21,418 bases of DNA from a virus, in the IMG/VR virus record IMGVR_UViG_3300042503_002640, positions 1-21,418 of that record, one strand, 5' to 3'. Each line of letters starts with the position of its first letter. The first letter of the stretch is position 1. This document shows positions 1-21,381 of this stretch, piece by piece. Under the pieces are notes generated by a model that was not told the origin of the DNA, ran no database searches, and saw only the letters and a program-made list of their open reading frames with translations. A program made the position numbers and the translations under genes.

Positions 1-1467
1 GATTGAGTTCTTAACAGTTTCTGGTGCCATTGGAAAAGCTGAGCTTCTCTGTCCAGGGTGATATGCAACCATCATACATGGTGCATCATACTTTCCTTTG
101 ATATTTGCTGCAATCTTTTCATGTTCCTTGCTCAATGGCTGGAACTTATCGAGATAGATTACTACTTCAATATCTTTTTTTTTATTTTGGTCTGCTTGAA
201 ATTGACTGAAAAAATCAGTTGCATCTTCATCTGTTCCAAAAAATTGATTAAAGGTAGGGAAGAAAGCTTCATTTAATTTATCCTCTGCTGCAAGTTGAAC
301 TTTAGCAATTTGAGACTTTAGAGTTTCTTTCATAGTTTTATTAAAAAATGTTGAGCTAACTCTAATATTCTTTTTTCTAAAAGTATTTAAGAAAACTCGA
401 TATAGTTCTTTAAGAGTTTTATCGGAATCAATTAGGTTGATAACAATATCATCATTAATTAGTGCTCGATTAACGTCAAATTCTGGTTTATTTAGAAACT
501 CTGGCGTTGTAATTTCAAGTCCGCGATATTTACTACCATACTCTTGAACAAAATCTTTAAAGATTGCATTGATAATTTGAATATAACGTCTTTCAAATGT
601 AGTACCATTTGGTTTAATTGCATCAAGATCTGCTTGTGAATAAGTTTCAATGAAATTCATTAAGTCCGCAGTCATGATCCAAATATAATCATCTGTCTTT
701 GGGGCTTCAACTCTAGCTTGAGCTTTTTCTTTTGCTCTTGCTTGGAAAACTGGGTCCACTAACTTTGCCAAAAATACCGAATCTTCTCCGCCTGGCTCAT
801 AAAATCTAAATACAATTCCTTCAATATCCTTATCTGCAGTATCTCTTAAAAAAGAGGTTTTGAGTTCAGGATTTAGGACATTAATAATGTATTTGGTAAA
901 TGATGCAGTCTTAAATTTTCCAACTAATTCATCAAGTGGAGTATAGACAAAATCTAAAATTTTCTCTTTTTGATCGTCTGTTAGTTTTCCTTGAAAAATA
1001 ATTGGAGGGCGCTCAATATCTAAAATATCTGCCCACTTGTCCAAATCTGCTTTATCTTGAATAGTTTCAGCCTGTTCGCCAGCTTCGTCCAATATATGGA
1101 TATAGCTTAAGATTAAGTGATTTTTTGGTAGTCTATCATATTGGATTGATTGAGCAGTTGGGGAACTGAAATATTCCATTCCAAAGTGATAGTTACATGG
1201 AAGTTTTTCAGTTACTTCTGATGATAACTCATCAAAATGTTTAAGTGCTGGATTATAGTATGAACTTAGGACACGATCAACTCCAGTTAATTTAGTATTA
1301 CGTTTAAAAAAGTCAAATGGTTCTTCTGAGTTTCCGCAGTTTCTTTGTGCACCAAAAAATGCACCGTCCATTTTTTCGTTAACGATAACTTCTTTATTAA
1401 GAAGAGCTTCTAAAAATTCTTTGCCCTTCTTTTCGTAAATGTCTTTTAAGTGGTTTAATCCTGCCAT
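1..1467 (-). CDS. Ligase-type nucleotidyltransferase fused to a degenerate cytidylyltransferase-like domain (partial, 3' end outside window)
   Basis: An open frame of 489 codons runs from the ATG at 1467 to the window edge without a stop, so the C-terminus is missing. The N-terminal part shows the covalent nucleotidyltransferase motifs of RNA/DNA ligases: motif I EKMDG (K32 is the predicted AMP-accepting lysine), motif III FGMEY (95-99), motif IV IEGIVFR (215-221) and motif V FLAKLVDP (232-239). After a helical linker (about 240-430), a strand IEVVIYLDKFQPLSKEHEKI begins near 433. It resembles the start of HIGH-superfamily cytidylyl/NMN-adenylyl transferases, but the HxGH motif reads SKEH. 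The family reaction would be ATP-dependent joining of nucleic-acid ends; RNA versus DNA cannot be decided here. It is the last visible gene of a minus-strand run with a HAD phosphatase and a P-loop kinase, which suggests end repair. The ligase fold is well supported; the second domain is tentative. Confidence 0.75.
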   Translation of the reverse strand, partial: MAGLNHLKDIYEKKGKEFLEALLNKEVIVNEKMDGAFFGAQRNCGNSEEPFDFFKRNTKLTGVDRVLSSYYNPALKHFDELSSEVTEKLPCNYHFGMEYFSSPTAQSIQYDRLPKNHLILSYIHILDEAGEQAETIQDKADLDKWADILDIERPPIIFQGKLTDDQKEKILDFVYTPLDELVGKFKTASFTKYIINVLNPELKTSFLRDTADKDIEGIVFRFYEPGGEDSVFLAKLVDPVFQARAKEKAQARVEAPKTDDYIWIMTADLMNFIETYSQADLDAIKPNGTTFERRYIQIINAIFKDFVQEYGSKYRGLEITTPEFLNKPEFDVNRALINDDIVINLIDSDKTLKELYRVFLNTFRKKNIRVSSTFFNKTMKETLKSQIAKVQLAAEDKLNEAFFPTFNQFFGTDEDATDFFSQFQADQNKKKDIEVVIYLDKFQPLSKEHEKIAANIKGKYDAPCMMVAYHPGQRSSAFPMAPETVKNSI

Positions 1468-1483
1468 AAAATTTAAATTGTTA

Positions 1484-1984
1484 TTAGTCTAAAGATCCGT
1501 ATTTTCCTGCTCCCATATCTTTCGCAAACTCTTGTCCAGCTTTTGAAGAAACGCTAAGGTTAATTCCTTTTAACAAACCAGCATCTTCTGGATTTTCTTC
1601 AAAATAGGTAATAAGTTTTGCTAAATCGATATTTTGATATGCCTGGATAGTTCCTTCAGGAAGCTTCTTTTCAAGCTCTCTACCTGAAGAGTAATCTTTC
1701 CAATTGATATTCCAACAAAAGAATCTAACTTCTTGCTTCATTTTTGTTGCATAGTAGTGGTCAACATCAGCTAATCTAGCTTGAACCTCAGAAAGATCTG
1801 TTTTATATGAAGTTGAGTGACCATAGATATCAGCTGGGGTTCCGATGCTTAAACTATCTGATGTAAGATCTGTTAATTTAACCAACTGATCCATAAGCTC
1901 TTGAAAAGGTAATCCTTTAAGTGGTGCTGATTCTTCTGCCTCGTTTAGGAACTGGCTAAAGTCTCCAATAATACGTTTTGTCAT
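1484..1984 (-). CDS. Uncharacterised 166-aa protein with capsid-targeting-like N-terminus
   Basis: I do not recognise this family. The N-terminus IIGDFSQFLNEAEES (5-19) resembles the T4 capsid-targeting peptide (MKTYQEFIAEA type), with a LxE tripeptide (LNE, 13-15) of the kind cut by T4 prohead protease. No membrane segment or metal site is seen. The rest is soluble and mixed alpha/beta, ending in a glycine-containing tail. It lies 21 nt downstream of the kinase gene and 16 nt upstream of the ligase gene on the same strand, so it is probably co-transcribed with them. A GATAAATAA element sits just upstream of its ATG. The function is unknown; packaging into the capsid is an inference from the N-terminal resemblance alone. 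Confidence 0.7.
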   Translation of the reverse strand: MTKRIIGDFSQFLNEAEESAPLKGLPFQELMDQLVKLTDLTSDSLSIGTPADIYGHSTSYKTDLSEVQARLADVDHYYATKMKQEVRFFCWNINWKDYSSGRELEKKLPEGTIQAYQNIDLAKLITYFEENPEDAGLLKGINLSVSSKAGQEFAKDMGAGKYGSLD

Positions 1985-2005
1985 TTTATAGTTGCCTATT
2001 TCTGA

Positions 2006-2014
2006 TTATTTATC
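2006..2014 (-). promoter_or_regulatory. Late-promoter-like element GATAAATAA
   Basis: On the minus strand the sequence is GATAAATAA, close to the T4 late promoter TATAAATA. It also encodes the last two codons and stop (Asp-Lys-stop) of the kinase gene and lies 21 nt before the ATG at 1984. The same element and spacing recur before the genes starting at 14302 and 17020. Promoter activity is an inference. Confidence 0.4.
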
Positions 2015-2605
2015 CCGAACCAATTTTTGTATTAGATCACAGAACTCATCAACTGAGTCTGGCGTAAAATTATTTGTAAATTGATCAAATGAATTACCTT
2101 CGCGACCATCTTTGAATCTAAATGGAGCAGATTCAATAAGTTTAGTCATAAGTAGCTTTTCTTCTTTTGCTGAAACTAGACCATCCCATAAATCTTTTTT
2201 ACGAGCCTGGTCCTGTTTAAATTCATCTGGTGCATCAATCATGACAGTTTTGCAATTTTGATAGCCTGGGCGTTTAATTAAACCATATAATTCAGATTGG
2301 GCTTGATTAAATTCTAATCGATTCCAAATGGTTGCCCAAGTAGCAGCTGTAATATGAGCTCGATCAAATACAAAAATCTTTTCTGGAAAATGTTCGTGTA
2401 GATCTAAGATTGTCATAATATTACCCATACTAAAATAGTGAATGCCTGAATCGGATTTATCCCATTCTTTAACAATTGCTGAATATTCATCAGCTAGGTA
2501 AAATTTATAATAAAATAGATTTAATTCAGCACCGTGTTTTTTAATTAATTGATTTAGCAAATAGGTTTTGCCAGAGTGACGTGTGCCTTCAATAAAGATT
2601 ATCAT
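2006..2605 (-). CDS. P-loop nucleoside/polynucleotide kinase-like protein
   Basis: The 199-aa protein opens with a beta strand and a Walker A loop, GTRHSGKT (7-14), and has FVFDRAH (78-84), the DRxH/DRY-type strand typical of thymidylate, nucleoside and polynucleotide kinases. The basic stretch QARKKDLWDG further on could be a lid. It should phosphorylate a nucleotide or a 5' end with ATP; the substrate cannot be read from the sequence. Its ATG overlaps the stop of the upstream HAD phosphatase gene (ATGA), implying translational coupling. T4 Pnkp carries 5'-kinase and 3'-phosphatase in one chain, so this pair could be a two-gene equivalent. A (d)NMP kinase for nucleotide supply is the main alternative. 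Confidence 0.65.
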   Translation of the reverse strand: MIIFIEGTRHSGKTYLLNQLIKKHGAELNLFYYKFYLADEYSAIVKEWDKSDSGIHYFSMGNIMTILDLHEHFPEKIFVFDRAHITAATWATIWNRLEFNQAQSELYGLIKRPGYQNCKTVMIDAPDEFKQDQARKKDLWDGLVSAKEEKLLMTKLIESAPFRFKDGREGNSFDQFTNNFTPDSVDEFCDLIQKLVRDK

Positions 2606-3132
2606 GAGTATTTAAGTTGTATTCTTTCTCTTGTTAATATACCAATATTTCCGTCAATTTGGAGTAATTCGGTCTTATCAACAAACCAATATTCAATTGA
2701 ATTGGTGATCTTACTTAAATAGGGATTTTTAACATATCGGTCTATTTGAACAAGAGAGTCTTCAAATATTCTGATTTTATCAAAATTAGGACCAACTTTA
2801 TCCAAATATTCAAGTAACATTTGTGGTTTATCTGTATTACGCTCGCAAAGGATAATTTGATCAAATGTTTTGGTAATTCCAAACTTATCTAAAACTGCAG
2901 CCATTGCTTTTCTGGTTGCCTCAACCCGGTGACTTAAGATAATAGTCGTATGGTTTTTGTCAAGTTTATTAAAAACAGACTCAATTAGCTGTAATCTGTA
3001 TAAATTGGTGTTTAGAGACTTTGGATTATCAAACCACTCGTAAGGTTTTGTAAACTCAGTACCGGCGTGGGTAAATGGGGGAACCCTAAATAAGGTTTCA
3101 TCAAAATCTACGACATTTAAAACTTGCTCCAT
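2602..3132 (-). CDS. HAD-superfamily phosphatase, Swiss-army-knife RNA-repair (HAD_SAK)-like
   Basis: The 176-aa protein has HAD motif I VVDFDETLF (7-15, nucleophile D9 and acid/base D11), motif II LSHR (66-69) and an acidic motif IV-like FEDS (123-126). The segment YEWFDNPKSL (31-40) resembles the WW-D-P-x-x-L signature that follows motif I in HAD domains of Swiss-army-knife RNA-repair proteins. The family removes phosphate from phosphoesters, plausibly 3'-phosphate ends. It is the first gene of a minus-strand run and its stop overlaps the kinase start by 4 bp. A TAGTATAATA element lies 25 nt upstream. The HAD fold is firm; a repair role is inferred from the motif and the kinase and ligase neighbours. 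Confidence 0.7.
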   Translation of the reverse strand: MEQVLNVVDFDETLFRVPPFTHAGTEFTKPYEWFDNPKSLNTNLYRLQLIESVFNKLDKNHTTIILSHRVEATRKAMAAVLDKFGITKTFDQIILCERNTDKPQMLLEYLDKVGPNFDKIRIFEDSLVQIDRYVKNPYLSKITNSIEYWFVDKTELLQIDGNIGILTRERIQLKYS

Positions 3133-4127: not shown

Positions 4128-5690
4128 TTGCTAAAGTTTAAGTTAACACCAGATAAAAGATATTTTCAATTAATACATAATGATCTTAAGAAAGAGGTAG
4201 TCGATCTTAAGAACTTCTTTAAGAAAAGAGCCAAGGGCTATCACTTTAGTCCACTATTTCAGCGTCGTCTTTGGGATGGCTATGATAAGTTTATAGATCG
4301 CGAAAATCGAATCGGAGTCGGTTTATGGTATCAAATCAAACAGTTTAGTCAAATCTACGGTCATGAGATTGAATTAGATGGATTAGATTCTCTACTTAAT
4401 CTTGAATTTACAAAGGATCAACTTGATAAATTTGCAAGTGTCCTATTAGATGGAGTCGATCTTACTCCATATGATTATCAAATGGAAGCTGCATACCGTG
4501 CTCTTAAATTTAAGTTTAGTGCACAGGAATTGGCAACCTCTGCTGGTAAAACTCTAATCCTATTTTTATATTTAAGCTTTCTTAAGCGTAAGGGAATTAT
4601 CAATGGTAAAGATAAAAAAGCCCTTATTGTAGTTCCTAATATTTCATTAGTTGGTCAAACTGCAGAAAAATTTGTAAAGGACTATCATACTGGCCTAATT
4701 AACTGGAATATTTTAGAAGTTGGCGGTAAGAACAAATATTCAGACAAGAAATTTGAAGAGGCGGATCTAGTTATCTCAACTTATCAAAGTTTAGCTAAAC
4801 GCGATGGAGACTTCTTTAAAAAATTTACTGTGCTTTGTGTAGATGAGTGTCATACTTCAAGAGGTGATACTATTAAAGATATTCTCTTAGCTTCAACTAA
4901 TGTTGAATATAAGTTAGGACTTTCTGGTACAATTCAAGTCGATGAGGATTTTTCTGATTTCTATAAAATCCAAGAGTACATTGGCCCTCTAAGCATGACT
5001 CTTAAATCTAGTTTCTTAATTGAAAACAAACACTCGCCAGACGTGTTTATTAAGATACTTTCCCTAAAATATCCAGAGAACGAGCCTTTTATTCAAAACT
5101 ACAAATATATGCAGGAACACGGTAAAAGTCAATTCCATCGTATTGAAGACTATGGAAAGAATATGTTCCAAATGGAAAAGGATTTTATTATTTCATACGA
5201 ACCTCGTGTAGATTTTATTTCATCACTAGTTAAAAAGCTAGGTGGAAATACCCTAATTCTTTTTATTAATGTGAAAGACAAATACGGTCAACGAATTAAA
5301 GAGAGAATTTCTGAGTGGAATCCAAACTCATTCTATATTGATGGTGAAGTAAGCGGAGATGACCGAGCTGAATATAAAGATGCAATGGAAGCAGGTTCTA
5401 ACGTAACTCTAGTTGCAAGCTATGCAACCTTTGCAACTGGTATTGACTTAAAAAATGTGCAGAGCATTATTTTTGCAGAAAGTTATAAGTCTGAAATTAC
5501 TATTCGCCAAGCAGTAGGTCGTGGCATGCGTAAATTGGCTGGAAAAAGCAAAGTAACGATTTATGATCTAATTGACGATCTAAATGGTTATATTGTAAAA
5601 CACGGTAAGGTTCGTGAGAAAATTTATGAAAAGGAAAAATGGATTGTGTCTAAGCACAATTATGATTTAAGTAAGTTTATTAAAGGCTAA
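4128..5690 (+). CDS. uvsW: UvsW-type superfamily 2 DNA helicase
   Basis: The 520-aa protein has an N-terminal domain (1-110) that includes FQRRLWDGYDKF (44-55), as in T4 UvsW. It is followed by SF2 motifs: Q-like YDYQMEAA (115-122), Walker A ATSAGKT (136-142), Walker B VDECH (238-242, a DExH variant), motif III LSGT (265-268) and motif VI QAVGRGMR near 470. T4 UvsW unwinds branched DNA and R-loops, promotes strand exchange and fork regression, and switches origin-dependent to recombination-dependent replication. The start is TTG at 4128 because an in-frame TAA lies at 4110 with no ATG between. The length is close to that of T4 UvsW. Its stop overlaps the stop of the convergent gene at 5687 by 4 bp, with no terminator visible. 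Confidence 0.9.
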   Translation: MLKFKLTPDKRYFQLIHNDLKKEVVDLKNFFKKRAKGYHFSPLFQRRLWDGYDKFIDRENRIGVGLWYQIKQFSQIYGHEIELDGLDSLLNLEFTKDQLDKFASVLLDGVDLTPYDYQMEAAYRALKFKFSAQELATSAGKTLILFLYLSFLKRKGIINGKDKKALIVVPNISLVGQTAEKFVKDYHTGLINWNILEVGGKNKYSDKKFEEADLVISTYQSLAKRDGDFFKKFTVLCVDECHTSRGDTIKDILLASTNVEYKLGLSGTIQVDEDFSDFYKIQEYIGPLSMTLKSSFLIENKHSPDVFIKILSLKYPENEPFIQNYKYMQEHGKSQFHRIEDYGKNMFQMEKDFIISYEPRVDFISSLVKKLGGNTLILFINVKDKYGQRIKERISEWNPNSFYIDGEVSGDDRAEYKDAMEAGSNVTLVASYATFATGIDLKNVQSIIFAESYKSEITIRQAVGRGMRKLAGKSKVTIYDLIDDLNGYIVKHGKVREKIYEKEKWIVSKHNYDLSKFIKG

Positions 5691-6469
5691 CCTAAGTGGC
5701 CATCTGCAATCTCTTCTTCTAAGAATTCTAGAAAATATTTCTTTGCATTTTGTTCAAATGATCTGTGTTGACGCTGAATATCTTTAAGATCTTCTTCGAT
5801 TTGATTGAGTTTAGCAAGTTCAGCCTTAAACCAATTAATAGATTCAGTTAATTTATCAGTAATTTCTTTTACTGCATCTTCGTCTTCAACCAAACCAAGT
5901 TCAGCAAGGCGTTTCCATTCAGGACTATTGATTGCCTTTGCTACATCAGCAATAACATCTTCTTCATACCATTCTTTAGTATCTAAATACATTTGAATAG
6001 TCTCTTCAGCATATTCTAATAATCTATCTGCGCCATTGTCTGGTGAAAGGTGTAGCCATCCGCCGCTATTTCCGCCCCAACCAACATGACCAACCCAATC
6101 GTAAGACTGTTCAATATCTTCTTGAAACATTTCAGCTTGATCTTGCAACCATCTATACCAAATATCAGAAAGTCGTTCCTCATCAAGTTCAATGCCAACC
6201 TTTGCCTGAACTTCATCTTCATCTGGGTAATTATAAACTTTTACATTTAGGGCAAAGAAGTCTCCATTGTAGTGATTACGGCCTCTATTTAGATTCCAGT
6301 CATTTGAAAAAAGCGAATCTACTCTTGCTTCAAACTGTTCTAGTTTTTCAAGTAATTCTTTTTCTAACCAAAAATCTCCAAGCTTATCTGCATAAAAGGA
6401 AACTAAAGAATTATTATTAGTCTTTAGATATTCTCTGCTAAAATTTTCAAATAGTTTAATATGCTTCAT
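5687..6469 (-). CDS. Uncharacterised acidic 260-aa protein
   Basis: I do not recognise this family. The protein begins MKHIKLFENFSREY, which resembles the short targeting-like N-termini seen on other proteins of this window. It is strongly acidic and rich in Trp and Glu, with a Gly-rich segment VGHVGWGGNSGGWLHLSP (about 126-143) between two helical regions. The C-terminal 70 residues look like a coiled coil (EEDLKDIQRQHRSFEQ). There is no signal peptide or membrane span. It is the last gene of a three-gene minus-strand run: its ATG overlaps the upstream TAA by one base (TAATG), and its stop overlaps the uvsW stop on the other strand. A capsid-internal role is only a guess. Confidence 0.65.
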   Translation of the reverse strand: MKHIKLFENFSREYLKTNNNSLVSFYADKLGDFWLEKELLEKLEQFEARVDSLFSNDWNLNRGRNHYNGDFFALNVKVYNYPDEDEVQAKVGIELDEERLSDIWYRWLQDQAEMFQEDIEQSYDWVGHVGWGGNSGGWLHLSPDNGADRLLEYAEETIQMYLDTKEWYEEDVIADVAKAINSPEWKRLAELGLVEDEDAVKEITDKLTESINWFKAELAKLNQIEEDLKDIQRQHRSFEQNAKKYFLEFLEEEIADGHLG

Positions 6470-7425: not shown

Positions 7426-8856
7426 ATGCAAACTAAAGAACAATTAGACAAAGAGATCAAACGTCTTAATCTTGAGCAAAATGCTCTAAAAATCTTGATT
7501 AACTCGTTTTATGGAGCCTTCGGTAACAAATATTTCTATTTTCACGATACAGATATTGCACAGTCGATTACTCTTCAAGGCCAAGACCTTATCAAGTTTT
7601 CAATTAAAGCCGTAAATCACTACTTTACAGAAAAGTGGCATCTTGATACAGAATTACATGAAAAGCTTGGTATATCCAATCTAAAAATTAATCAAGTTAA
7701 AGAAGATGCTGCAATTTATACTGACACAGACTCATGTTATGTTAGTTTTCATCCAGCAATTAAATCAATTGAAGGTTTTTCCTTAACTGATACAGAAGCT
7801 CTTAAGTTTTGTTTGGCAATTAATCGCGAAAGACTAAGCGGTTATTTTAGAGCAGCCTTTCAAAAATATGCAACTGCATTTAATACTGATAATCGTCAAG
7901 AGTTTGAAATGGAGAATCTTTCAAGAGCTGCAATTTGGTGTGCTAAAAAGAAATACGTCCTTAAGGTAAGTTATGAAGACAATCCAGCTGAAGAATTAGC
8001 AGAAAAAGAAAGTCAAATTGTAAAAGGTCTTGAAAAGGTTCAATCTTCTTATCCAATCTGGGCAAGAGCTCACCTTGAAAAACTATATGACTTTTTCTTA
8101 GATCGTGGTTATGACTTAGATCTTGAAGATGAGCTTATTCCTAAATTACAAGCTTTACGAGCTGAGATGGAAACTCTTTCACCCGATGATATTTGTTTCT
8201 CGTTTTCTGTTCGTACATATGATAAGTATGTTAAGAGCGAGCATCCTTTAAAATTAGATAAGGGTGTTCCAATCTATACACGAGCTGCATCATATCATAA
8301 TTTTATGCTAAAAGAAACAGGTAATAAGAAATACAATCGTGTAATAAGCGGTAAAGTTAAATTCTATTATGCTGCACCTAATCCATATGAATTTGATATT
8401 TTTGCATTTTCTCCAGGAGTTTATCCAACTGAATTTGCCCTACCGATGGATAAAGATCAACAATTCTTTCGCTTGATTTGTGAACCTTTAAATAAACTAC
8501 TTCTTGCAATGGGATTACCTCAAATTAATCCACAATTACGTCGTGCAATCGAAGTAGTTAAGCATAAACCTAAAAAGGGTCAAGAAATCCAAGATTTCCC
8601 TATCCATATTGTAGATTCTGAAACATTTGAAAATACATTAGTCCCAGAAGCTCTTCAAGATTTTATTGCAAATCCAGATCTAGCAATTCCGCCCCAATTG
8701 ATGCCACAATATTTAAGTATTGTTTCTAAATATGGCCTAAATACAGTGGTTGTTCCAGAAGCAGAGCTTACTAAATATATTGATAAAATTAAGAAAAAGA
8801 AAGCTTCTAAAGCAGTTGTAGTCGAAGAGGACGAGCTAGAAGAAGTAGAAGATTAA
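7426..8856 (+). CDS. 43: DNA polymerase family B, C-terminal (catalytic) part; split gp43-like
   Basis: The 476-aa protein starts about 20 residues before motif B, KILINSFYGAFGN (22-34, K22/N26/Y29/G30), then carries motif C YTDTDS (98-103, catalytic D100 and D102) and the KKKY DNA-binding motif (174-177). These match the second half of T4 gp43. The 3'-5' exonuclease domain and motif A (D-x-x-SLYPS), which supplies the other catalytic aspartate, are absent. An in-frame TAA at 7390 shows that the frame does not continue upstream, and no N-terminal partner is seen in this window. Activity would require assembly with a separate subunit. The C-terminus is longer than in T4 and ends in Lys-rich then Glu-rich sequence rather than an obvious clamp-binding peptide. 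Primase follows after 5 nt. Confidence 0.9.
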   Translation: MQTKEQLDKEIKRLNLEQNALKILINSFYGAFGNKYFYFHDTDIAQSITLQGQDLIKFSIKAVNHYFTEKWHLDTELHEKLGISNLKINQVKEDAAIYTDTDSCYVSFHPAIKSIEGFSLTDTEALKFCLAINRERLSGYFRAAFQKYATAFNTDNRQEFEMENLSRAAIWCAKKKYVLKVSYEDNPAEELAEKESQIVKGLEKVQSSYPIWARAHLEKLYDFFLDRGYDLDLEDELIPKLQALRAEMETLSPDDICFSFSVRTYDKYVKSEHPLKLDKGVPIYTRAASYHNFMLKETGNKKYNRVISGKVKFYYAAPNPYEFDIFAFSPGVYPTEFALPMDKDQQFFRLICEPLNKLLLAMGLPQINPQLRRAIEVVKHKPKKGQEIQDFPIHIVDSETFENTLVPEALQDFIANPDLAIPPQLMPQYLSIVSKYGLNTVVVPEAELTKYIDKIKKKKASKAVVVEEDELEEVED

Positions 8857-14074: not shown

Positions 14075-14302
14075 TTAGGCAACTGGTGCCTGAGCTGCTG
14101 TAAGTTTAGCGGCTTCTGCTTTCTTTTTGTCCTCTTCAGTCTTAAGTTTATTAGCCTCAGCAATCTTTAATCTAATTGCATCAAGTTCTTTTTGAGAATC
14201 TAATACTTTTTGCATTGCAGTTGCTTCTTGTTGATTTAAGGCAACTAAATCTGCTGCTGCATCTTCATTTAGACCAAAGTAGTTTTGAAATGACTTAACC
14301 AT
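14075..14302 (-). CDS. Small coiled-coil protein with capsid-targeting-like N-terminus
   Basis: The 75-aa protein starts MVKSFQNYFGLNEDAA, similar in pattern to the T4 capsid-targeting peptide (KTYQEFIAE type). It continues as a single predicted coiled-coil helix, rich in Ala, Lys and Glu (about 22-68), ending TAAQAPVA. Small, charged helical proteins of this kind serve as prohead core or internal proteins in T4-like phages, so a scaffold or core role is possible. A GATAAATAA element lies 20 nt upstream, consistent with late expression. It lies between the neck-like gene and the HAD-nucleotidyltransferase gene. Confidence 0.6.
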   Translation of the reverse strand: MVKSFQNYFGLNEDAAADLVALNQQEATAMQKVLDSQKELDAIRLKIAEANKLKTEEDKKKAEAAKLTAAQAPVA

Positions 14303-14322: not shown

Positions 14323-14331
14323 TTATTTATC
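14323..14331 (-). promoter_or_regulatory. Late-promoter-like element GATAAATAA
   Basis: GATAAATAA on the minus strand encodes the terminal Asp-Lys-stop of the HAD-nucleotidyltransferase gene and lies 20 nt before the ATG at 14302. It shares ATAAATAATAAAAA with the region upstream of the gene starting at 7351. Confidence 0.4.
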
Positions 14332-15648
14332 GGAAAGATAGTCCGAAAAACTTTTTACGTGGGTTGTTCCAGAACCAGGATTTGCTCCAAGTTCTTGACG
14401 ACTTCCTCTATATGCACCCCATTGAGATGGTACTCTCATAGTTCCGGCAACTCTTTGTGGAGCTCTTTCCGGTGGCATATCATCCATATCTGGATTGCTT
14501 TTCTTGCGGTCTCTGAGTAACTCTGGGGTTAGCAGGTCCTCTTCAATCTTTCCACCTAATATCATCCATACCTTTTTAGGATCCTTTCCTTCAGGGATCC
14601 CCTGTGCAAAACTATCAAAATCTTGAGCTAACCAAAACTCTCTCATTAAGGTTCCAGAAACTCCATCGTCATCTCCTTCTGCTCCAGAGTTTCCACCAAA
14701 TTCTGGTCTTTCTGTTGTAATTCGGTTAATTTTAGAAATAGATCCTCTCCACTTCTCCATGGCAGCCCATCTAGGCATATCTTGTTCAGTTGCATAAAGA
14801 TTTACAACTGTATTTGGAGCATATTGAGTTTGGCCTAGAGCTTCAACAAATTCATATCCGCTTCTAACTGGCGTAACTTCTGATAGGTGTAATTCAACGT
14901 TATCAAAATCTTCTAAGTAATAATCAAGTACATCCATTGCAGCTTTGCCAGTAATTCCAGCCATTTCTGTCTTGGAAATAAACACATGTACCTCGTCATT
15001 TTCTTCTGCAATTTTTGCAATTGCTTCATAGTGACCGGCATGAGGTGGTTTGAATTTACCACTAAATATACCTACAGTTTTAATATCTAATTTTGGAACT
15101 TGAGTACGACCAATTTTTCTGGTCTTCATTGTAATTTCGCTAAACTCGTCTTCTAGACTTTTTGCAAGTTCTAGGTTTTTACGATCATCATCATAAAATG
15201 TAAAATGAGTAAAGCCTTTTGCCATTAATTTACGAAATGCTTCTTTTTTCTTTTCTGCAATAGTTCCATCAAATCCAAAGTCTGGATCGCTTACTGCGTA
15301 AATTAAATTAGGGTGAATATCGATACCATGGGACAATAGGAATTCTCTGACTAATTTCTTATTATCTCTAGCTGTAATAATCCCGACAGCGGTCCCAGAT
15401 TCATACGCAGTACGTAATATATTAAGTACCCATTCAACCAATCGACCAGCCTTTAAGATATTAGCATCATTAAATTGGTTGTAGTCAACCTCATGATGAG
15501 GTTCCTTTTCATATTCATTAAACTCCTGTGGAGTAAGATCAAATGTTTTGCCAGTCAAGGCGTCCTTAACTATAATCTTTGCATTAGTGACAACTAGCGT
15601 ATCATCTAAATCGAATATAATAATTGAATTATCTCTAGAAAATGCCAT
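14323..15648 (-). CDS. HAD phosphatase - cytidylyltransferase-type nucleotidyltransferase fusion
   Basis: The 441-aa protein (ATG start) has two catalytic domains. Residues 1-185 form a HAD phosphatase with IFDLDDTL (motif I, D13 and D15), ITAR (motif II, T92) and YDDDRKN (D153/D154), similar in layout to the 3'-phosphatase half of T4 Pnkp. Residues 190-340 form a HIGH-superfamily nucleotidyltransferase with GIFSGKFKPPHAGH (193-206; intact H203-x-G-H206) and VSGTLMREF (330-338), matching the (I/V)S-G-T-x-x-R motif. The tail (341-441) is Pro/Gly/Arg-rich and ends VKSFSDYLSDK, resembling the N-terminus of the next gene product. It may process and adenylylate or cytidylylate a phosphorylated nucleotide or sugar, but the substrate is unknown. 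GTG at 15666 is an alternative start adding six residues. Confidence 0.8.
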   Translation of the reverse strand: MAFSRDNSIIIFDLDDTLVVTNAKIIVKDALTGKTFDLTPQEFNEYEKEPHHEVDYNQFNDANILKAGRLVEWVLNILRTAYESGTAVGIITARDNKKLVREFLLSHGIDIHPNLIYAVSDPDFGFDGTIAEKKKEAFRKLMAKGFTHFTFYDDDRKNLELAKSLEDEFSEITMKTRKIGRTQVPKLDIKTVGIFSGKFKPPHAGHYEAIAKIAEENDEVHVFISKTEMAGITGKAAMDVLDYYLEDFDNVELHLSEVTPVRSGYEFVEALGQTQYAPNTVVNLYATEQDMPRWAAMEKWRGSISKINRITTERPEFGGNSGAEGDDDGVSGTLMREFWLAQDFDSFAQGIPEGKDPKKVWMILGGKIEEDLLTPELLRDRKKSNPDMDDMPPERAPQRVAGTMRVPSQWGAYRGSRQELGANPGSGTTHVKSFSDYLSDK

Positions 15649-15683
15649 TTCGTTTACTCTTTGCACTGGCCTACTATTTTTTG

Positions 15684-20715: not shown

Positions 20716-21381
20716 TTAATTAACTTTGAACTTAAATCCAGTGATCTTTTCGATTTGAGCTACAGGGACTTCGTTATTTTGCATACCATCTGGTTTATTT
20801 GTGGTATTTGCAAAAAGATAAGCGTGCCATTCATTTTTAGATTTAATATAGATGACTTTCCAGCAATGTGTAGGAACTGCTGTACCTTTACCAATAGTTT
20901 TAGCAACTCCAATATTGCCACACCATACTTTAACTGAATCTGCAACGGCTGCAGTTTGACGAGTATAAGTCTCTAATGACTTCCAGTCTCCAGCATTTAG
21001 CGAATGATATTGAGCTGACATATTTGAAAAATAGAAACATTCGTCCTGTACCAATTGAGTTTGGCAAAGATTGTCTGCAGCTGGCATCATATGACCTCTA
21101 TCAGTACCTGAACCAACATAATCTGCAGCAATATTAGTTTCATTTGGAAGAAGTGGATCTGGTTTAAATGCGTCCTTTCTCTTAAGTGGAGCTGGACAAG
21201 TTACCATTGCTTTAGTCGTCCACCATTCAACAAGAATAGGGTACTTTAGTGATTTTGAAAAAACTGCTGTGTAGTTTGTATGCTTTAGTCTAACTGTATC
21301 AGTTGTAGCAAATTTGGTTTGGGTCTGTGCTGATGCTACCACCGGTAACAAAAATAGCAAAATGTAAAATATACGTTTCAT
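20716..21381 (-). CDS. Secreted DNA/RNA non-specific endonuclease (NUC family)
   Basis: The 221-aa protein has a Sec signal peptide (1-18, MKRIF, hydrophobic core, ASA|Q), so the mature enzyme acts outside the cytoplasm. The beta-beta-alpha-Me nuclease motif is complete: DRGHM (94-98, general base H97), metal ligand N120 in YFSNMSAQ, and N129/W133/E137 in NAGDWKSLE. Relatives such as Serratia nuclease cut single- and double-stranded DNA and RNA with Mg2+. Cys62, Cys106, Cys115, Cys154 and Cys173 may allow disulfides. A palindrome GGAATATTTATTCC lies just upstream of the ATG. In a lytic phage it could scavenge nucleotides, clear extracellular DNA or block superinfecting DNA; it could also be a host-derived acquisition. 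Confidence 0.9.
   Translation of the reverse strand: MKRIFYILLFLLPVVASAQTQTKFATTDTVRLKHTNYTAVFSKSLKYPILVEWWTTKAMVTCPAPLKRKDAFKPDPLLPNETNIAADYVGSGTDRGHMMPAADNLCQTQLVQDECFYFSNMSAQYHSLNAGDWKSLETYTRQTAAVADSVKVWCGNIGVAKTIGKGTAVPTHCWKVIYIKSKNEWHAYLFANTTNKPDGMQNNEVPVAQIEKITGFKFKVN

Follow-up and report, generated by a model that had tools for sequence, protein, structure and literature searches.

A conserved HAD phosphatase, P-loop kinase and ligase gene trio in phages as a candidate polynucleotide end-healing and sealing module

Results

Organization of the gene cluster

At one end of the window, by which we mean the whole 21.4-kb virus record analysed here, four genes follow one another head to tail on the minus strand in the order HAD, kinase, 166-aa protein and ligase. 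These genes and the neighbouring helicase gene are:

2602..3132, minus strand: putative HAD phosphatase, HAD_SAK_1-like; 176 aa, first of the cluster; PF10307 matched by 18/23 family members
2006..2605, minus strand: predicted P-loop kinase of the thymidylate/deoxynucleoside kinase group; 199 aa; PDB profile match 4.4e-6, AF2/Foldseek
1484..1984, minus strand: small protein, 166 aa
1..1467, minus strand: putative ligase, N-terminal 489 aa of 964; PF09414 match, motif tables
4128..5690, plus strand: UvsW-like helicase, outside the trio; a homologue adjoins the cluster in nearly all relatives

The stop codon of the HAD gene and the start codon of the kinase gene share 4 bp (ATGA) and the remaining gaps are 21 and 16 bp, which bears out the co-directional, close-packed arrangement given in a preliminary description of this DNA. 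The ligase open reading frame runs off the first base of the window. In a near-identical relative (L027, IMGVR_UViG_3300042352_001190), whose ligase is 97% identical over the common part, the full-length protein has 964 aa (L027:10001-12895), so that the gene and motifs first described stand but the extent does not: past the window, the protein goes on through a HIGH-type domain and then a C-terminal extension. Furthermore, all four genes were confirmed to be real and under strong purifying selection in the window clade, with dN/dS far below 1 (most values 0.02–0.17); it was lowest in the ligase domain (about 0.01–0.04), with 0.04–0.10 for the HAD and 0.04–0.17 for the kinase.

Elsewhere in the window, 7426-8856 (plus strand) encodes a family B DNA polymerase of which the C-terminal half alone is present. 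Polymerase pieces likewise lie in separate open reading frames in L041, suggesting a split enzyme in these phages. The product of the minus-strand gene at 20716-21381 is predicted to be a nuclease; it has a DRGH motif, and its N-terminus resembles a signal peptide.

The trio is a conserved and exclusive unit

A search of IMG/VR with the ligase profile found at least 389 related stretches in viral contigs, and the family extends to the 462–735 kb phages LR756500-LR756504 and LR745206. It has two main branches. In the first, the HAD, kinase and ligase genes occur in this order and adjoin uvsW; in the second, the ligase is fused to an intact HIGH-type domain and the HAD and kinase are undetectable alongside. 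The kinase profile was then scanned independently, so that the choice of the ligase as query would not bias the outcome. Counted as loci and not as independent events (IMG/VR contigs are fragmentary and partly redundant), 81 loci were found, containing 58 different kinase open reading frames in about 48 clusters at 90% identity. The ligase lay directly downstream of the kinase in 79 of them, both exceptions being truncated by the end of the contig, and the HAD lay directly upstream in 77, one of the four exceptions being too close to a contig end to judge. A scan with the HAD profile gave 39 loci, with the kinase present in 37 and the remaining two again cut by contig ends. The kinase family was found only with the HAD and/or the ligase. 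Because both scans find the partners adjacent, we conclude that the trio is an obligate unit; chance neighbourhood was rejected on the kinase–ligase adjacency, and the conservation of the trio in related phages, proposed earlier as a check, was confirmed. Scanning genome contigs with the kinase profile gave a single locus, on a contig of a Bacteroidetes MAG that is possibly of phage origin itself. Searches of annotated phages at the DNA level and with the kinase and HAD proteins gave no match, and we found no published description of the trio among open-licence papers.

The small protein is an optional member of the cluster, present in 52 of the 81 trio loci and undetected in 29. Its N-terminus resembles T4-type capsid-targeting peptides (MTKRIIGDFSQFLNEAEE). 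Similar N-termini were seen at window positions 5687-6469 and 14075-14302 and in several L027 genes; the pattern, which was chosen after seeing examples, occurs in 6/35 genes and in 16/391 internal stretches (Fisher p 0.006).

The HAD and ligase belong to RNA-repair families

Close relatives show little or no variation in the catalytic motifs of the HAD, kinase and ligase. In the window HAD these are D9-x-D11-x-T13, S67, K102 and E124-D125-S126; across the family alignment D9, D11, T13, K102, D125 and S126 are invariant, E124 nearly so, and residue 67 is Ser or Thr. HAD_SAK_1 (PF10307), a name that reportedly originated in an RNA-repair survey, was matched by 18 of the 23 family members (E up to 0.5; best 1.4e-9). 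The window protein is absent from these 18 and by itself gives weak HAD matches only. At the level of the family, these data support membership of the 'Swiss-army-knife' RNA-repair HADs and uphold the early assignment as a HAD_SAK-like phosphatase.

The window ligase matched PF09414 (RNA_ligase) at 1.1e-7, with 32.6 bits against a cut-off of 27. Motifs I (EKMDG), III (FGMEYF), IV (IEGIVF) and V (FLAKLV) are intact in the window and its clade, as had been reported. The protein matches none of the DNA-ligase families, whereas it does match RNA_ligase; assignment as a DNA ligase was rejected on this ground, and the matches support an RNA_ligase-family nucleotidyltransferase. Beyond the RNA_ligase domain (residues ~25-235) lie a helical part (~265-430), a degenerate HIGH-type nucleotidyltransferase domain (~435-600), of which the window holds the start, and, in L027:10001-12895, a C-terminal extension (~601-964) with a GE...IL...GD...IE(V/I)K pattern resembling PD-(D/E)xK nucleases.

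This C-terminal pattern is common to the window clade, L058-L060, L178 and L181. Together with the constant neighbour uvsW and the location of the phages' tRNA-repair genes elsewhere, it would fit a role in joining DNA ends, in which the cluster would be tied to recombination or replication beside UvsW as a phage counterpart of PNKP and ligase, some members adding a PD-(D/E)xK-like nuclease domain. We consider this unlikely: the ligase matches RNA_ligase and no DNA-ligase family, the HAD matches RNA-repair HADs, and neighbours in late phage regions need not have a common function.

The HIGH signature (HxGH, (S/T)xxR) is degenerate in the window clade (KFQPLSKEH, ELESDLIN) and throughout the trio branch; the sister branch L095-L125, apart from L098, keeps it intact (GRFQPFHxGH ... 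SGTEVR). Such a domain is not known from canonical sealing enzymes, and its fusion to the ligase counts against the sealing model. It gave weak matches to NMN/phosphopantetheine adenylyltransferases, and in sister-branch members it is matched by the phage 'cytidyltransferase' families phrog_3041 and phrog_395; these matches span only the HIGH-domain part of the proteins, and the window clade gave none. A separate minus-strand gene of the window (14323-15666) encodes a HAD joined to a HIGH-type nucleotidyltransferase whose signatures are intact (GKFKPPHAGH, SGTLMR), suggesting that, besides the degenerate HIGH domain of the ligase, an apparently active HIGH enzyme is maintained in the genome.

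We also compared retention of the motif I lysine with the presence of the HAD. It is kept in 57 of 58 trio-branch ligases from loci with HAD and kinase; in the exception, L094, the lysine is lost although the HAD is present. Loci certainly lacking the HAD form a single clade (support 99/98). Five of its six ligases have Asn or His at the lysine position, and the sixth is without the preceding Glu. The lysine loss thus accompanies HAD loss as one evolutionary event, these rows being one clade, and is suggestive of a HAD that serves the ligase reaction. Several distant relatives, megaphage homologues included, also lack this lysine. The ligase-fold homologues of L042-L045 (634-735 kb phages) have neither the motif I nor the motif V lysine and are probably inactive as ligases, suggesting that the fold can persist without sealing.

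Some further features were seen around the ligase homologues. A Pol-beta-like nucleotidyltransferase gene adjoins that of L042. In the branch without HAD and kinase, L120:7060-7980 and L099:6633-7544, near upstream of the ligase fusion, carry a Pol-beta-like nucleotidyltransferase motif, GSIGKK...SGD(L/I)D(L/I)G, and these open reading frames had no Pfam match. In L026/L057 (IMGVR_UViG_3300046805_000650) the ligase open reading frame stops at 344 aa, by a true frameshift or an assembly error.

The kinase groups with thymidylate and deoxynucleoside kinases

The window kinase contains the P-loop GTRHSGKT and the pair D81-R82. In the preliminary description it was a P-loop kinase with a DRxH strand; the P-loop and the Asp-Arg pair hold, with Asp-Arg alone invariant, but the histidine is confined to the window clade, distant relatives having DRSI, DRCI or DRAI. 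A PDB profile search with 28 relatives gave deoxynucleoside kinases at 4.4e-6 and yeast thymidylate kinase at 0.034, and a PHROG thymidylate-kinase family was matched by up to 22 of the 28 members. An initial fold from six close sequences was discarded (pLDDT 53). The AlphaFold (AF2) model retained had a pLDDT of 86, and thymidylate kinases made up 49 of its best 50 Foldseek matches (E 4e-6, TM mostly ~0.6-0.7). AAA_33 was matched by only 4 of the 28 members (best E 0.14), and hhalign of the kinase against the AAA_33 kinases of the same phages reached only 61% probability, across the first ~129 residues. Profile, PHROG and Foldseek preference together led us to reject a Pnkp-type or AAA_33 polynucleotide kinase, and place the enzyme, by profile and predicted fold, in the thymidylate/deoxynucleoside kinase group. 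The kinase part of the earlier proposal is therefore not supported, this grouping being one of the outcomes that had been named as refuting that proposal.

The family shares fold, P-loop and DR motif with these kinases and differs from them in two invariant features, the P-loop arginine (EGxRxxGK) and a YYK on strand 2. In thymidylate kinases, the P-loop position of this arginine is an Asp at the acceptor site, and the trio family lacks this Asp. Because of the invariant Arg and YYK, the enzyme is probably not a plain TMP kinase.

The fold group also bears on a nucleotide or cofactor pathway, in which the kinase and HAD would interconvert a (modified) nucleoside and its phosphates, the HIGH domain would make, or once have made, an NAD-like dinucleotide, and the ligase-fold domain would transfer a nucleotide to a small molecule, a protein or a nucleic-acid end. 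The weak resemblance of the HIGH domain to NMN/phosphopantetheine adenylyltransferases and its intactness in the sister branch without HAD and kinase are consistent with such a pathway, as is a canonical thymidylate kinase above cut-off in 0 of the 12 records searched. We nevertheless regard it as rather unlikely, since the P-loop Arg makes TMP an unlikely substrate, no trio phage keeps an intact HIGH signature, and the HAD_SAK and RNA_ligase families point to nucleic-acid ends.

The same phages keep a separate tRNA-repair set

Relatives of the window phage have clustered tRNA genes, and their tRNA cluster holds an AAA_33 kinase beside an OB-fold RNA ligase, plus a cREC domain; in one relative it also holds HAD_SAK_2 and a T4 Rnl1-type ligase. 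These genes correspond to the jumbo-phage RNA-repair set of cREC, HAD_SAK, polynucleotide kinase and Rnl1/Rnl2 (Iyer et al. 2021, PMC7824862). The trio shares the Swiss-army-knife HAD and RNA ligase families with that set but differs from it in locus, in its kinase and in its fused ligase, the repair set being separate genes within the tRNA cluster and the trio sitting away from it, beside uvsW and structural genes. Since the same phages keep the canonical set within the tRNA-gene cluster, the trio is a second, distinct system.

This separation weakens the earlier proposal that the cluster counters host anticodon nucleases such as PrrC, and a simple role of that kind is not our first choice. 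A form of it in which the trio repairs tRNA redundantly with the tRNA-cluster set, yet acts on other cleavage products, would agree with the HAD and ligase families and with the view that multiple RNA ligases in one jumbo phage are specialised and not redundant (PMC7824862). We judge it improbable because relatives carry a canonical kinase, ligase, cREC and HAD_SAK_2 within their tRNA cluster and because the trio persists in G004, a 176-kb contig, possibly incomplete, with no tRNA gene found. The target is probably not simply cleaved tRNA anticodon loops.

Discussion

The trio is conserved in order, exclusive and under purifying selection. Its HAD and ligase families favour end healing and sealing, and we give an even chance to the reading, the best supported of those considered, that the cluster is a phage module for healing and sealing polynucleotide ends. 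We infer three activities, their order and their substrate as follows. The HAD would remove a terminal phosphate, most likely 3'; the P-loop kinase would add the 5'-end phosphate needed by the ligase; and the ligase, charged with AMP on the lysine of EKMDG, would then join the ends. RNA would be a likelier substrate than DNA because the HAD and ligase fall in RNA-repair families. The idea of end repair by three cistrons thus survives in its HAD, its ligase and the conserved trio, and not in its kinase or an anti-PrrC role.

These proposed activities parallel the phosphatase, 5' kinase and ATP-dependent ligase of T4 Pnkp and Rnl1. Unlike the T4 system, the trio consists of three cistrons with a SAK_1-like HAD, a TMPK/dNK-like kinase and a ligase that is a HIGH-domain fusion encoded beside uvsW. 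The kinase family is the weak link of the healing and sealing model: either a TMPK-type enzyme was recruited to polynucleotide ends, or its substrate is a nucleotide and the module serves another purpose. More tentatively, the trio may represent a second end-repair pathway in which a TMPK-type end kinase is obligately linked to a Swiss-army-knife HAD and a ligase-HIGH fusion, the two catalytic domains of the fusion degenerating in different lineages.

The trio comprises three small proteins open to direct assay, and the HAD-less lineage is a natural experiment on the dependence among the partners. If the end-repair model holds, two separate systems for end repair coexist in jumbo phages, nucleic-acid ends would be substrates of a kinase family hitherto associated with nucleosides and nucleotides, and the ligase/HIGH fusion family, with its at least 389 matching stretches in viral contigs, would gain a function.
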